Position numbers and translations under genes: made by a program. A model generated the notes under the pieces. It did not search any database and had not been told where the DNA came from. It was given only the letters and a program-made list of their open reading frames with translations. 64,000 nucleotides of DNA from Oceanicaulis sp. GTDB lineage: Bacteria; Pseudomonadota; Alphaproteobacteria; Caulobacterales; Maricaulaceae. The stretch spans positions 1 through 64,000 of the forward strand of contig JAFIEB010000047.1 in the NCBI GenBank assembly GCA_020832735.1. The letters are read 5' to 3'. This document shows, one piece after another, positions 23,343 through 30,718 of the stretch (position 1 is its first letter; every line of letters begins with the position of its first letter).

Positions 23343-26300
23343 TCAAATCAGCTCCACCTGCGCCACGCCGTCGAGCCCTTTGAGCGCGGCGCGCGCCACC
23401 GGATCGACGGCGTGATCGCCCGGCAGGCGCAGCTCGGCCTGGCGGCCGTCGGCCAGCGCCATCACCAGATGCACCCGCCCGCGAGGGCCGGGGCGCACGC
23501 GCGCATGCTCCAGGCGCGCGCGCACGCCCTCGAGCGGCTCGGGTCCGTCAAGATGAATGCGCAAGGCCCGCCCGTCCGCCTCGAAGGCGGCGGTGTCGAT
23601 GGCCTCGGCGCTCTCCATGATCAGGCGCAGCCCCTCCTCCTGCTCCTCGATCTTCATCGCAGCCAGCACCGCCGCGCCCGGCTCCAGCCGGTCGCGGACG
23701 GAAAACAGGATTTTGGGCGGGACCAGCGCCTCGAACTCGCCAGACGGGTCGGACAGGGTGAGGAAGGCGAATTTCTCGCCCGAGCGGCGCGACACCTTCT
23801 CCTGGCGCCGGCGCACGATGGCCGCCATGCGCGCGGCGCGCACGCCTTCCGCGGCGCGCGCGGGCAGATCGGCGAACAGCACCACGCCGCGCCGCGCCAG
23901 CCCGTCACGCAGATCATCGAGCGGATGACCTGACAGATAGAAACCCACCGCAGACAATTCCTCGTCAAGCCGGCGCACCGGGTCCCATATCTCCCCGTCG
24001 GGCAGGCGCGGGCGCTGCAGGCCGGGCGCTGCGGCGCCCGGGCTGGAACCGCCGAACAGGGAGGCCTGCGCGCTCTCGCGCTCGGTCAGGGCGTGCTGGG
24101 AGAAGGCCAGAAGCGTCTCGGCGGCGGCCAGCGCGCGCGCGCGGTCCGGCTCGATGCTGTCGAACGCGCCGGCCCGGGCGAGGTTTTCAAACCCGCGCTT
24201 GTTGACCTGGCGCGGATCGACCCGCTCGGCGAAATCGAACAAATCGCGGAACGGCCCGCCCTCCTCGCGTACGCGCGCCACGTGCTCCATGGCCGAGAAG
24301 CCGACATTGCGCACGGCGCCCAGCCCATAGCGCACCGCGCCGTCCTCCACCGAGAAATCGGCCTGGGAGCGGTTGACGTCAGGGGGCAGCACCGCGATCC
24401 CCATGCGCCGCGTCTCCTGGAAGAACACGGCGAGCTTGTCGGTATTGGTGCGGTCAAGGCTCATCAGGGCGGCCATGAAGGCGACCGGATGATTGGCTTT
24501 GAGCCAGCCGGTGCGGTAGGCGATGACGGCGTAGGCGGCCGCGTGGGACTTGTTGAAGCCGTAGCCGGCGAACTCGTTGACCAGATCGAAAATGGTGGCC
24601 GCGCGCACCGGCGGCACGCCGCGTTCCTTCGCGCCCTCGAGGAAGCGGACGCGCTGCTGATCCATCTCCTCTTTCTTCTTCTTGCCCATGGCCCGGCGCA
24701 ACAAATCCGCCTCGCCCAGCGAATAGCCCGACAGGATCTGGGCGATCTGCATCACCTGTTCCTGGTAGATGATGATGCCGTAGGTCTCTTTGAGCACCGG
24801 CTCCAGATCGGGATGGAGATAGTCGAGCTCGGCCCGTCCCGCCTTGCGGTCGACGAAGCTGTCGATGTTCTTCATCGGGCCGGGACGGTAGAGCGAGATC
24901 AGCGCGATGATGTCCTCGATCGTGTCAGGCTTCACCTTGCGCAGCGTGTCGCGCATGCCCGAGCTTTCCAGCTGGAACACCCCGATGGACGAGCCTGCGG
25001 CGAGCAGTTCAAACGTGGCCGGATCATCAAAGGTCAGGGTTTCGAGATCGGGACGCGGCGCGCCGGCCGCCTCGATATAATCCAGCGCGCGCTCGATCAC
25101 GGTCAGGGTTTTCAGGCCCAGGAAGTCGAACTTCACCAGGCCCGCCGGCTCGACCCATTTCATGTTGAACTGGGTGGCGGGCAGGTCGGCGCGCGGGTCC
25201 TGGTAGAGCGGCACCAGCTCGGTGAGCGGCCGATCGCCGATCACCACCCCGGCCGCATGGGTGGAGGCGTTGCGGTTGAGCCCCTCAAGCTGCAGCGCCA
25301 CCTCGATCAGGCGCGCCACCATGGGATCGCCGTCGCGCAGCTCCTGCAGCCGGCTCTCGCTCTCCAGCGCCTGGGCCAGCGTGACCGGGGCGGCCGGATT
25401 GGCCGGCACCAGCTTGGCGATGCGGTCCACCAGCCCGAAGGGCAGCTGCAGCACCCGGCCGACATCGCGCACCGCCGCGCGCGCCTGCAGCGTGCCGAAC
25501 GTGATGATCTGGGCCACCCGGTCCGCGCCATAGCGCTGCTGCACATAGCGGATCACCTCTCCCCTGCGGTCCTGGCAGAAATCGATATCGAAGTCGGGCA
25601 TCGACACGCGTTCGGGATTGAGGAAGCGCTCGAACAGCAGGCCGAACCGCAAGGGGTCGAGATCGGTAATGGTCAACGCCCAGGCCGCCAGCGAGCCCGC
25701 CCCGGAGCCGCGCCCCGGCCCGACGGGAATGCCCTGGGACTTGGCCCACTGGATGAAGTCCGACACGATCAGGAAATAGCCGGGAAAGCCCATGGACTCG
25801 ATGACGGAGAGCTCGAAATCGAGCCGCGCCTCATAGGTCTCGCGCGGCGCGGCCGGCTCGTTGCGCTCAAGGCGCGCCTCCAGCCCGGCGCGGGCGCGCG
25901 CGCGCAGCTCTTCAGCCTCGTCACGTCCGCCTTCGGTGGGAAAGCGCGGCAGGATCGGCGCGGCGGTGCGCACCCGCACCGCGCAGCGCCGGGCGATCTC
26001 CACCGTAGCGTCCAGCGCCTCGGGCAGATCGGCGAAGCGTTCGGCCATCTCGGCGCCGGACTTGAAATAGTGCTCCGGCGTCACCGTGCGCCGGTCGCTC
26101 TGGCTGACATAGCTGCCTTGCGCGATGCACAGAAGGGCGTCATGGGCGCCGTGCTGTTCGGGCCGGGCGAAGAAGGGCTCGTTGGTGGCCACAAGCGGCA
26201 GGCCGCGCGCATAGGCGCGGTCGATGAGATAATCCTCCGCCGTCAGATCATCGGGGCGGCCATGGCGCTGAAGCTCGAGATAGAGCCGGTCGCCGAACGC

Positions 26301-26795
26301 CGCCGACAATCGGTCCAGCAGCGCATCGGCGGGACCTGTGCGTCCGGCGCAGACCAGGCGGTTGATCAGCCCGTCATAGCCGCCGGTCAGGCAGATCAGG
26401 CCGCCCGCGCGCTCCAGCACTGCGTCCAGGCGCACATGGGCCGGGTCGGAGGGCTGGATATCCAGCCAGGCCGAGGAGGCCAGCGCCATCAGATTGGCGT
26501 AGCCCTCTTCGGTCTGCGCCAGCAGGACCAGCGTGCCGTCAGGCCCGCCGCGCTCGCCGGTGCGGGCCGGCTCGATCTCGACCGAGAGCGTGCATCCGAT
26601 AATGGGCTGCACCCCGGCGTCCGAGAGGTATTCGGAATACTCCAGCGCGCCGAACAGATTATTGGTGTCGGTCAGCGCCGCGGCGGGCATGTCATGGGCG
26701 CGGCACAGCTCGGCGATCTCGCCGATGCGCAGCGCCCCTTCCAGCAGCGAATAGGGCGAGCGCACACGCAAATGGATGAAGGGGCGCTGGCTCAT
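23343..26795 (-). CDS. dnaE: DNA polymerase III subunit alpha
   Basis: PHP domain [38 protein letters not shown]; about 1150 aa. Confidence 0.97.
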
Positions 26796-26889
26796 GGGAC
26801 GGGTCTCCGCGCGGCGGGGGGATTCGCTCACCGCGCAACTCTAGCCGAGGCCGGGCGCCGGGGTCAGCCCGCCCGGTCAGCCCGCACCC

Positions 26890-26982
26890 TTAAGCGGCCA
26901 TGGCCGCCGAGACGGGCAGGGCGAGCGTGACGAAGCCGGCGATCACGGCGGCCGAGGCGATGTCTTCAATGAGGCTGCGCAT
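26890..26982 (-). CDS. Small hydrophobic 30-aa peptide MRSLIEDIASAAVIAGFVTLALPVSAAMAA
   Basis: ATG..TAA, 31 codons; GAAGGA RBS upstream; promoter-like TTGACG-17-AAACAT with near-SOS boxes. Confidence 0.5.
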   Translation of the reverse strand: MRSLIEDIASAAVIAGFVTLALPVSAAMAA

Positions 26983-27019
26983 GGCGGATGTCCTTCAGAT
27001 AACGCCGCATAGCGCGGCT

Positions 27020-27069
27020 ATTCCTGTTTTGTTCCGCTGCATGTTTTCCCTTTTTGTTCTCCACGTCAA
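27020..27069 (-). promoter_or_regulatory. Putative LexA-regulated promoter of the 30-aa sORF
   Basis: Minus strand: TTGACG (27069-27064), 17-bp spacer, AAACAT (27046-27041); GAAC-N7-GAAA (27059-27045) and GAAC-N7-GAAT (27034-27020), each one mismatch from GAAC-N7-GAAC. Confidence 0.45.
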
Positions 27070-27265
27070 GCGCGAATCGTGCGAGCGCCATGATGATTCT
27101 CAAAGCTGTGGAAAATCGGGGGCTTGGCCGACAGCGCGCCCACGCAGCCCACCTGTGCATGGCAATGGCCGACTGATCCACTTGCATATCGGTCGATCAA
27201 ATAGAACGGGTTGAAAACAGCTCAACTCGTCAGATATAGCCCGCGTAGAATACCGAATCTATAAA

Positions 27266-28630
27266 TTACCAGTATATCGCAACGACCTCGACATCCAAAA
27301 GATGCGCATCATTTGGCTTAGGGTTTTCTCTAAAGTGTTCTTGTGGCTGACCACTTGGCTCGCTATCCACCGGAAATAGGGGCAGATCAAGCGCCGTTCT
27401 GACTTTCTCACGGATGGATAGGTCATCAGTAGCGCTAATTTTTAATTGAACAAACGACGACACAATATCTCTGGTTTGCGCGAATGCGATTCTCTGCCCT
27501 TCAGCAGTGTCGTTATTAACCTTCATTTGCGCAATTAACCTATCTATCTCATTTGAATCACCATCAGAGATGGTGAGCTCGCAATGAGAAATTAAATTGT
27601 CCTTGTATCTGGCCAGCGCAAGCCTCAGCTGAGACTCTTTGGGGTCAGTCTTCGGTTCTGCGTGACCTGATTGGATCATTGCATTCCGACTCGCAGATTC
27701 AATTTGTGACGCCAGATCCGGAGCGAATTCACGAAAAATATCTGCTACTTTAATTGGATTCCAATCAGCCTGGAGCCCCGTCTTAGAGATCCTGCACAAC
27801 ATAGTAAATTCATTCTCCGCAAAAAGTATTCTTCTCAAATCCTTCCAATAAGCCAGATGCTCTGTCACCCCAACAATTTTAAGCGGTCTTGATATTATAT
27901 CGGTTAAATCAATTGCGTCGTTATGAACAATGCAATATTGATCTTGATGATTAATTACCGAGTATTGCGAGACCTCACCATCTATTGGAATTAGGCCGGC
28001 GAGCAATTTACTTATCAACTTATTCGCGTTCTTTGCATTATAAACGTCCGAAAATCGCACTTGATTCATGAATAGCGTCGGGCTTTCATCAAACATTTCT
28101 GAGAACTCCGCAATCATAGTGCTTATCTGAAAAATGTATGAAGCGGAAAGCTTAACTTTAAACTCTACTAAATCGCCCCTTATTAGATCTGACGAGATAT
28201 AAATTGAGCCCTCAGGTTTTTCATTGAAAAGCTGATCAATAGTTGGGTATTTTTTGTTCACTTCAATCGGATGAATGCGTTTCAGATCTCTTATTTTATG
28301 AAGTTCGCGAAATAACGATTGCGCGTTCGCTTTGCGAACTGTCTGGAGTGCGCTGCTATTGGAAGTTTGAAATCTCGAATTGAGCTCTGCCGACGGGAGT
28401 GCCGGGGCTCCAGTCGAAACTTTGCTGCCGACTTCTGCAAGGAATTCCTGCTCCGATTGAGCGACAATATTTTCAGTTTGCTCCCCTTTTTGAGATGCCA
28501 AGAGGCTAGCTAGGCTGACCTCATCCAAATAGACGAACTCTCGTAGAGGCTCTTTCGCCCTTTCTTGGGTGATGCCAGCCGACGACGGACCAAAGGCAAT
28601 CCAAGGAGCCCTTCGAGTAAATCTAATCAT
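27266..28630 (-). CDS. DUF6414-like protein, partner of AAA+ ATPase
   Basis: N-terminal REFVYLDEVSLASLLASQKGEQTENI...; AT-rich; start MIRFTRRAPW overlaps the upstream ATPase 3' end by 8 nt. Confidence 0.55.
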   Translation of the reverse strand: MIRFTRRAPWIAFGPSSAGITQERAKEPLREFVYLDEVSLASLLASQKGEQTENIVAQSEQEFLAEVGSKVSTGAPALPSAELNSRFQTSNSSALQTVRKANAQSLFRELHKIRDLKRIHPIEVNKKYPTIDQLFNEKPEGSIYISSDLIRGDLVEFKVKLSASYIFQISTMIAEFSEMFDESPTLFMNQVRFSDVYNAKNANKLISKLLAGLIPIDGEVSQYSVINHQDQYCIVHNDAIDLTDIISRPLKIVGVTEHLAYWKDLRRILFAENEFTMLCRISKTGLQADWNPIKVADIFREFAPDLASQIESASRNAMIQSGHAEPKTDPKESQLRLALARYKDNLISHCELTISDGDSNEIDRLIAQMKVNNDTAEGQRIAFAQTRDIVSSFVQLKISATDDLSIREKVRTALDLPLFPVDSEPSGQPQEHFRENPKPNDAHLLDVEVVAIYW

Positions 28631-29864
28631 CTCTTCTCGCCCGCACCTTGCTACGCTCAGGCCGACGTGCAACTCGTTCATAGGCTTGCGCAAAATCCTC
28701 TGAGGCAATCAACTTGCGCCCATCCCCCGCCGCAATCAGAGCGGCTTCTGTCCAAATTGAAGAAAGTCGAGCGGCCGACCAGTTATGAGTTCTCAGCGCA
28801 ACATCCCATAATGGAAGGTCTGCGGCACAAGATATCTTGCGGGTTCCTGTCTTCAGTATCTCCCAACGATCAACGACAGTCGGAAGGCCAAATTCAATCT
28901 CCCAGTCGAACCGGCCTGGCCGCATCAGTGCCGGGTCAAGCGCCTCAGCTCGATTTGTTGCGGCGATAACGATTGTAGCATTCTTACTGGAATCGAAACC
29001 ATCCATTAGTGTAAGGAATTGAGCCACAAGCCGCCGCGACGACTCATGCGTATCACCTGCCCTGCTTTCACCAATGCTATCAATTTCGTCAAAGAATATG
29101 ATCGCCTTTCCCGCTTCAGATTTGTTTGCATGCTCGAAAATTTTTCGCAGAATATCCTCTGTATCGCCAACCCACTTAGTGACTATTTCCGGGCCGCTAA
29201 TATCGTAAAAGTCTGCGCCAGATTGCTGCGCAATAATTCTCGCTAAATGCGTTTTACCAGTTCCGGGCGGACCGGTAAAAAGAATTCCTTTGATTGGACG
29301 AGCGCCAATCTCGTCCAATTCTGCTCGACGCTCTAGCTGTGTTTCGATTAATTGCTTAGCTCTAGCAACAACATCGCGATACCCACCAAAATCGTCGAAC
29401 GTTAATCCGTCTTCTTTCGGCTTAAATAAGAAGGAGGCAGGAGAAACGTCTTCGTCTGATGGATGTAACCGCACACGTATCGGCTGATCAGAGAGAATTC
29501 GCTGAATTACTGACGCACCATCGACCTCGACGGTCGCATTTTTCTGCACTGGGAAGCCCTCAGGATTGGACAGCGGTAGCAAGGTGCTCCCGAATTCCCC
29601 TAAAATTGTACCATTCTCCAAAATATCCCTCACAACAGAAACATGTAAACTGCGCGGCCAAGCATCATTGGATACCTGTTTCCATCTCCCGCCAGACGAA
29701 AATATTACATCGCCCTTCTCTAATGCATCCGAATCTACACCACTTATTTTAGCTGTTCGCCCATCTGTTAAACGCAAGAAAACCGTTCCAGTTTCCTCAT
29801 CAATGTACGTGACCTTCATCAGGTCACCTATTTCTTTCTCTTCTAACTCTACATCTGGGTTCAT
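28623..29864 (-). CDS. AAA+ ATPase (CDC48/proteasomal-ATPase-like) with N-terminal beta-rich domain
   Basis: Walker A GPPGTGKTHLAR, Walker B KAIIFFDEIDSIGESR, sensor/Arg finger ATNRAEALDPALMRPGRFDWEI. Confidence 0.85.
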   Translation of the reverse strand: MNPDVELEEKEIGDLMKVTYIDEETGTVFLRLTDGRTAKISGVDSDALEKGDVIFSSGGRWKQVSNDAWPRSLHVSVVRDILENGTILGEFGSTLLPLSNPEGFPVQKNATVEVDGASVIQRILSDQPIRVRLHPSDEDVSPASFLFKPKEDGLTFDDFGGYRDVVARAKQLIETQLERRAELDEIGARPIKGILFTGPPGTGKTHLARIIAQQSGADFYDISGPEIVTKWVGDTEDILRKIFEHANKSEAGKAIIFFDEIDSIGESRAGDTHESSRRLVAQFLTLMDGFDSSKNATIVIAATNRAEALDPALMRPGRFDWEIEFGLPTVVDRWEILKTGTRKISCAADLPLWDVALRTHNWSAARLSSIWTEAALIAAGDGRKLIASEDFAQAYERVARRPERSKVRARRDD

Positions 29865-29955
29865 AATTGCATCATGGTCGTGATATCGGAAGAAAAATTC
29901 TTGGCCAACGCTTATTCAATTTTTCCGTGCATCCAAGGTGCCGTAACGGGTCGGA

Positions 29956-29973
29956 TGTCATACCTATATGACA
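29956..29973. promoter_or_regulatory. Palindrome TGTCATA-CCTA-TATGACA upstream of the AAA/DUF6414-like operon
   Basis: Perfect 7-bp arms, 4-bp spacer, about 92 bp upstream of the ATPase start. Confidence 0.5.
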
Positions 29974-30025
29974 GGCGTGCCGATCGCTATAGTCGCGTCG
30001 AAGAAATTTGGCTGACTGAACCCAC

Positions 30026-30718
30026 TCACCCCTCCGCCACCCACGGCGTCAGCCGGCCGTTTTCCACCGTCACCACCCGGTCCATGCGTGCGGCGAGCGC
30101 GAGGTTGTGGGTGGCGATCAGGGCGGCGGCGCCGGCCTCGCGGCAGGCGGCGGCGAGCGCGTCGAAGACCTGGTCGGAATGGGCCGGGTCGAGATTGCCG
30201 GTGGGCTCGTCGGCGAGCACCACGCGCGGATTGTTGACCAGCGCCCGGGCGATCGCCACGCGCTGCTGCTCGCCGCCCGACAGCTGGCCCGGACGGTGGG
30301 TCAGCCGCCCGCCGAGCCCCAGCGATTCCAGACGCGCGCGCGCCGCGTCGCGCGATGCGCGCACCCCCTGCCCTGCAATGCGCAGCGGCAGGGCCACATT
30401 CTCCAGCGCGTCGAGCTCGGGCAGGAGATGGTGGAACTGGTACACAAACCCGATCTCGCGCCGGCGCAGCGCGGTGCGCGCGCGCTCGCTCAAGGCCAGC
30501 CCGTCCTGCCCGGCGATGAAGACCTGGCCGGCCGTGGGCGTCTCCAGCAGGGCGGCGGCATGCAGCAGCGAGGACTTGCCCGAGCCTGACGGCCCGACCA
30601 GCCCGACCAGCTCGCCGGAATAGAGGTCAAGCTCGGCGCCGGTGAGCACTTCCAGGCGCTCGGCCCCGGTCTCGTAAATGCGCGTCAGGGCGCGGATGGA
30701 CAGGACCGGCTCACTCAT
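30026..30718 (-). CDS. lolD: Lipoprotein-releasing ABC transporter ATPase
   Basis: GLVGPSGSGKSSLLHAAALLETPTAGQVFIAG; LSGGEQQRVAIARALVNNPRVVLADEPTGNLD. Confidence 0.92.
   Translation of the reverse strand: MSEPVLSIRALTRIYETGAERLEVLTGAELDLYSGELVGLVGPSGSGKSSLLHAAALLETPTAGQVFIAGQDGLALSERARTALRRREIGFVYQFHHLLPELDALENVALPLRIAGQGVRASRDAARARLESLGLGGRLTHRPGQLSGGEQQRVAIARALVNNPRVVLADEPTGNLDPAHSDQVFDALAAACREAGAAALIATHNLALAARMDRVVTVENGRLTPWVAEG

Follow-up and report, generated by a model that had tools for sequence, protein, structure and literature searches.

The closest analogues of the gene pair described here are the Iet and Dodola systems. In Sgi/Iet, the ATPase IetA serves as the antitoxin for the subtilisin IetS (PMC5006074; PMC8562856); Iet is listed as anti-phage in PADLOC and NCBIfam and described as a toxin–antitoxin system in PMC5006074. 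Dodola, composed of DolA and the ClpB-like DolB, protects S. thermophilus broadly by no known mechanism (PMC12322248, PMC11514479), and integrated Dodola slowed the growth of this host (PMC12322248).

The pair that we analyzed lies in a window of 64,000 nucleotides (the whole stretch examined, positions 1 to 64,000 of contig JAFIEB010000047.1 of Oceanicaulis sp.). Like Iet, it is a two-gene operon in which a single-AAA ATPase gene comes first and a dedicated partner second, carried on mobile DNA. Unlike Iet, the partner is a DUF6414 protein instead of an S8 protease, and the ATPase resembles PADLOC IetA (1.8e-32) and NCBIfam IteA (3.2e-25) over the AAA module only. Membership of the Iet family by profile was rejected, since the NCBIfam score was 89 against a 510-bit cut-off and the subtilisin was replaced by DUF6414. 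With Dodola, the pair shares a two-gene layout that combines an AAA+ unfoldase-type ATPase with a small protein of no assigned function. However, the ATPase here is of the classic AAA (Cdc48/PAN) type and not of the ClpB type, and its similarity to DolB covers the P-loop only (E 0.051 over 22 residues). Dodola membership by profile was likewise rejected: the PADLOC DolA profile matched neither gene 2 nor any other DUF6414 protein scanned, long or short, and DolA was found in none of 387 genomes from the class of G419. DolA may be annotated as DUF6414 and may carry this domain; the pair is possibly a motor-swapped relative of Dodola.

The partner has no model in PADLOC 2023 or NCBIfam 2026, current defence annotation leaves the two-gene unit uncalled, and a full-text literature search found no paper that names DUF6414.

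An AT-rich insertion between dnaE and lolD

Base composition and comparison with relatives both set the cassette apart from its surroundings. In 500-bp windows, the GC content was 0.38–0.54 at about 27000–30000 and roughly 0.57–0.74 on either side; that of the two-gene pair was 0.462, versus 0.669 in the remaining window. The description of an AT-rich region in high-GC surroundings is thus borne out. By blastn, homology to the closest congener (G013, locus L174) ended at 27128 and restarted at 30026, at the lolD stop codon, which indicates an insert of approximately 2.9 kb. The sequence-only reading had placed the insert at 27190–29980; the region was correct, and the insert (Table 1) reaches slightly further on its left side. 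No tRNA or integrase gene accompanied the insert, and no convincing target-site duplication or flanking repeat bracketed it. In a promoter scan, promoter-like sites were not above those in shuffled sequence, and terminator-like sites were within one s.d.

Table 1. Features of the cassette and its flanks (coordinates in the window)
Feature	Coordinates	Strand	Basis
Flank dnaE (DNA polymerase III alpha)	23343..26831	-	homologues adjoin lolD in congeners
AT-rich inserted cassette	27129..30025	.	non-homology limits vs G013 (blastn to L174), GC profile
Gene 2, long-form DUF6414 protein, 454 aa	27266..28630	-	PF19952 4.6e-48, AlphaFold2 model
C-terminal strand LDVEVVAIYW-COOH, residues 445-454	27269..27298	-	DSSP strand 444-453
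Long-form-specific region, residues 361-440, mostly helical	27311..27550	-	occupancy, model helices
Gene overlap, 8 nt	28623..28630	-	coordinates; homologous genes nearly always overlap or almost touch
Gene 1, single-AAA ATPase, 413 aa	28623..29864	-	PF00004 8.1e-43, AlphaFold2 model, Foldseek
Pore loop 1 KWVG, residues 230-233	29166..29177	-	aromatic in 48/50
Walker A GPPGTGKT, residues 198-205	29250..29273	-	G198, G201, G203, K204, T205 invariant 50/50
Flank lolD	30026..30718	-	adjoins dnaE in congeners

Of 14 further genomes from the genus, 11 have dnaE and lolD side by side, separated by a short spacer. Eight of these congener gaps were measured: seven were 272–351 nt and one was 617 nt. 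In the wider family, lolD lies upstream of dnaE with a gap of about 107–675 nt in 22/29 sampled loci, and none of the 14 congeners has DUF6414. These comparisons bear out the proposal that the cassette breaks a conserved synteny, and the absence of the pair from congeners means that it does not occupy this site in all relatives.

At this insertion point, the closest congener has an AT-rich gene pair of another kind (L174, 1912-4818). One member is a C5-cytosine methyltransferase of 383 aa (MTase_II 6.7e-95; match to a solved structure at 1.1e-85), and the other is a 571-aa protein with weak similarity to PD-Lambda-5_A, whose N-terminus is perhaps a GHKL-type ATPase as judged by sequence. This second pair may itself be a defence cassette. 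At a single site, two sister species therefore carry two-gene cassettes that are unrelated to each other. The horizontal acquisition that had been suggested for our pair is shown by its absence from congeners, the clean junctions, the GC contrast and the unlike cassette that the closest congener has at this site. The idea that the dnaE–lolD gap is a defence hotspot throughout the family was unsupported; outside the two sister species, its other occupants comprised a membrane protein and a stretch that is rearranged or IS-like.

The ATPase and its DUF6414 partner

The product of gene 1 consists of a beta-rich N-domain (residues 14–125) and an AAA module (residues 155–400). Its AlphaFold2 model (pLDDT 89) gave the 26S proteasome Rpt subunits and p97 N-D1 as the best Foldseek matches. 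In an alignment of 50 ATPases, K204, D259 and E260 of the nucleotide site, N304 of sensor 1, the arginine fingers R315 and R318, and the DG of the DGF in the ISS motif were present in 50/50, and residue 231 of the pore loop was W in 39, Y in eight and F in one. The motif set of a classic AAA unfoldase (Walker A/B, sensor 1, SRH arginines, pore aromatic and ISS) is complete. The protein thus carries every motif of a threading unfoldase, and would be expected to unfold proteins as an ATP-driven hexamer.

The AAA module, the pore aromatic, the ISS, the two arginine fingers and the beta-rich N-domain are shared with Cdc48/p97, PAN and Mpa/ARC. In contrast to these proteins, the ATPase would form a single AAA ring, has a fixed DUF6414 partner and lacks a proteasome tail. 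Only one AAA match was found in the 413 aa, as against the two modules (D1 and D2) of Cdc48/p97, and the C-terminus, KVRARRDD, is variable among homologues and lacks the HbYX motif.

Gene 2 encodes a full member of the DUF6414 family. PF19952, the sole Pfam family in the protein, matched at full length (profile positions 1–283) with 164.8 bits against a 25-bit cut-off. The AlphaFold2 model had a pLDDT of 81 and a pTM of 0.63, with a core above 90 and 229 residues at or above 90. A search of this model against the PDB gave no fold match (best E 0.42), and a search against viral structures gave no match below E 0.06. The F-x-Y-L-D start is found across the family, including the solo forms and short forms found independently, whereas the conservation of REFxYLD at the N-terminus within the genome-scan set stems in part from the pattern used for searching. 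No catalytic motif was apparent among the invariant residues of gene 2.

The ATPase-linked members of the family are approximately 140 residues longer than the others. Residues 361–440 had an occupancy of 0.00–0.26 in short forms versus at least 0.70 in long forms, and a second gain of the long forms, an insert at residues 221–245, was missing from most solo forms. The long forms also end in Tyr-Trp: Y453 and W454 were invariant in 49/49 aligned long forms as the exact end of the protein, and the C-terminal pattern A-[IMLV]-Y-W was present in these 49 sequences from bacteria and archaea. The model shows this end as one of the strands that make up the core sheet, and not as a free tail.

A final tryptophan is also frequent among haloarchaeal short forms that lack an ATPase (L111, L151, L154, L155 and L156; ends AIYW, AIWW, GLFW, AIHW and AVFW), so that the terminal tryptophan is older than, or independent of, the link to the ATPase. 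Since L111 ends in AIYW, a terminal YW can occur outside the ATPase-linked forms.

As far as the two genes themselves are concerned, the sequence-only reading was accurate. The lengths, the minus strand, the 8-nt overlap and the KVRARRDD end are as described; the Walker A/B motifs, Arg fingers and beta-rich N-terminus are borne out by the 50-sequence alignment and the model; and assignment to a CDC48/Mpa-like unfoldase type is supported by the motifs and by the match of the model to Rpt and p97. Its term “DUF6414-like” identified the second protein correctly and understated the case.

Distribution, mobility and neighbourhoods of the pair

A genome scan with DUF6414 sequences alone yielded 58 loci in Alphaproteobacteria, Actinomycetota, Chloroflexota, Acidobacteriota, Ignavibacteriota, a Dormiibacterota bin and haloarchaea. 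The ATPase gene lay directly upstream in 57 of these, mostly overlapping by 1–14 nt; the sole exception was the short form L111. The scan used nine seeds, all of them ATPase-linked, and one N-terminal pattern, and its sample therefore favours the ATPase-linked branch. Pfam-based surveys, which remove this seed bias, detected DUF6414 of any form in 8/399 Pseudomonadota, 25/399 Actinomycetota and 22/151 Halobacteria genomes. In these surveys, the ATPase accompanied 17 of the 18 long forms (at least 390 aa) and one of the 31 short or partial reading frames, the latter being a long form truncated by the end of its contig. The only long frame that lacks the ATPase (L146) resembles a short form whose start has been over-extended. 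There are two forms of DUF6414: the long one is nearly always found beside the ATPase, and the short one stands alone.

The pairwise identities of the ATPase and of DUF6414 were correlated (r 0.936; Mantel test on 43 loci, with 0/2000 permutations as high). The ATPase and DUF6414 are a real unit, and the earlier proposal of a dedicated two-component module is borne out by both the adjacency in 57/58 loci and this co-divergence; homologues of the second gene do co-occur with the ATPase.

The pair is also mobile, as evidenced by the conserved empty site, the clean junctions, low GC, carriage on plasmids and a nested tree. Plasmid copies were found in Novosphingobium, Rubrobacter, Tsukamurella, Streptomyces, Corynebacterium and haloarchaea, and every copy inspected had the ATPase gene directly upstream. 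The GC content of the pair was more than 0.03 below that of its flanks in 39/54 loci and above it in 0/54. In the DUF6414 tree, Actinomycetota are nested with Pseudomonadota, and haloarchaea stand apart.

Most homologous loci stand alone, outside large defence islands. Defence genes were among the four nearest genes at no fewer than eight loci, a raw count that has no matched background; these included Gabija (L059 and L066), restriction systems of type I (L072 and L076), type III (L098) and type IV (L087), an MkoC-like gene (L073) and PDC-M23B (L093). In the phage collection, a solo DUF6414 gene was found in the P2-like Vibrio phage 10N.286.54.E4_PE001 between the CI-repressor and integrase genes, a position that is a defence hotspot of P2-related Vibrionaceae phages (Rousset 2022, PMC9122126). 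By our reading of the sequences, the solo genes L115 and L116 follow repressor-like genes in prophage-like regions.

Overall, the pair has the marks of a defence system in being patchy, mobile and near defence genes or hotspots. The sequence-only reading proposed a candidate undescribed, defence-like system. The first part holds, since it has no model in PADLOC 2023 or NCBIfam 2026 and the literature searched does not describe it; the defence role is circumstantial, since it relies on solo DUF6414 in a hotspot and beside repressors, on defence genes near some copies and on the methyltransferase cassette at the same point.

Solo short DUF6414 genes lie beside prophage repressor-like genes in L112 (4998-5915), L115 (5216-6112) and L116 (5029-5871), a placement reminiscent of superinfection-exclusion genes. 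The family phrog_9699, whose function is unassigned, matches two solo forms (L112 and L040). Inspected by eye, the solo gene of L113 (5526-6602) sits among small genes that share its strand, one of them with an FRG-like sequence, in an arrangement that resembles the cassettes of an integron.

Proposed mode of action, alternatives and a neighbouring reading frame

We consider the cassette to be a two-gene conflict module that moves horizontally and is most likely directed against phages; a ring of the unfoldase would act through a dedicated DUF6414 partner. We assign this reading a probability of roughly 0.6. A defence function would best explain the observations taken together. Gene order, co-divergence and the long-form-specific region indicate that the partner is fixed to the ATPase, and we infer that the two proteins form a physical complex. 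The ring of gene 1, of the classic AAA type, would grip polypeptides via its aromatic pore loops and pull them using ATP. The helical region peculiar to the ATPase-linked form of gene 2, perhaps together with the invariant Tyr-Trp, would couple the partner to the ring, a step that we offer as conjecture. The DUF6414 core would recognize an infection-specific target, and the solo short forms in prophages are supposed to do likewise. The ATPase would then unfold or dismantle the partner-bound complex with no need of a protease. We thus favour a direction of action in which DUF6414 is the recognition part and the ATPase is the motor that pulls the recognized complex apart. The pair has a threading ATPase but no protease, and neither proteasome nor HslV subunits occur in three of the carriers, which argues for unfolding or remodelling over degradation.

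The main rival assigns other roles. In a pair of the IetA/IetS or SgiA/SgiT kind, DUF6414 would be a toxic effector that the AAA protein holds or remodels in an inactive state, and infection or plasmid loss would free it and stop growth. Architecture and gene order match those of IetA/IetS, in which IetA is the antitoxin (PMC5006074, PMC8562856), the ATPase matches PADLOC IetA and NCBIfam IteA over the AAA module, and integrated Dodola slowed S. thermophilus growth (PMC12322248). Plasmid carriage also speaks for it, and mobility and AT-richness, which are typical of plasmids, fit toxin–antitoxin or maintenance modules too. However, short DUF6414 occurs ATPase-free in phages, prophages and genomes, suggesting that the core is not obviously lethal alone, and its invariant residues display no apparent catalytic motif. 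We regard this reading as unlikely; it is the strongest of the alternatives.

A housekeeping or stress proteostasis factor carried on mobile DNA, with DUF6414 as its substrate adaptor and no role against phages, is improbable. The AAA module is close kin of PAN, Cdc48 and FtsH, but the low frequencies in the Pfam surveys, the absence from congeners, the mobile contexts and the solo relatives in prophage immunity regions all speak against it. That the pair is a proteasome- or HslV-linked regulatory particle, with the Ile-Tyr-Trp end of the partner as an HbYX-type docking tail, is hardly credible: the invariant A-[IMLV]-Y-W of the 49 long forms does fit hydrophobic-Tyr-X, but no PF00227 (proteasome/HslV) subunit was found in the Microbacterium, Leucobacter and Chloroflexi carriers (three genomes), the only match in the Oceanicaulis sp. 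genome is short (~171 aa) and looks like HslV, and the modelled tail forms a strand of the core sheet. Dependence on a proteasome or HslV is accordingly rejected for those three carriers, which supports the sequence-only reading in its preference for a dedicated partner over a link to the proteasome.

Few prokaryotic immune systems are known to act by protein unfolding. Returning to the anti-phage reading, we tentatively suggest a wider one: the pair may represent an undescribed immune system of bacteria and haloarchaea in which a proteasome-independent unfoldase of the Cdc48/PAN type dismantles viral complexes through a DUF6414 adaptor of unsolved fold, DUF6414 being a general virus-recognition fold used alone (short) or linked to a motor (long). 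If this is true, unfoldase-based defence would be present in both bacteria and archaea, and a role would be assigned to a family for which the literature search gave no paper. The occurrence of the DUF6414 partner both with and without the motor would then provide a natural experiment.

Between dnaE and the cassette, a reading frame for a 30-aa hydrophobic peptide, MRSLIEDIASAAVIAGFVTLALPVSAAMAA (26893-26982, minus strand), is kept in most congeners examined. SidA of Caulobacter is a 29-aa inner membrane protein (PMC4211646), and by analogy the 30-aa frame may encode a SidA-like SOS-induced division inhibitor. Tandem GAAC-N7-GAA[AT] motifs at 27020-27059, ahead of this frame, resemble alphaproteobacterial LexA boxes.
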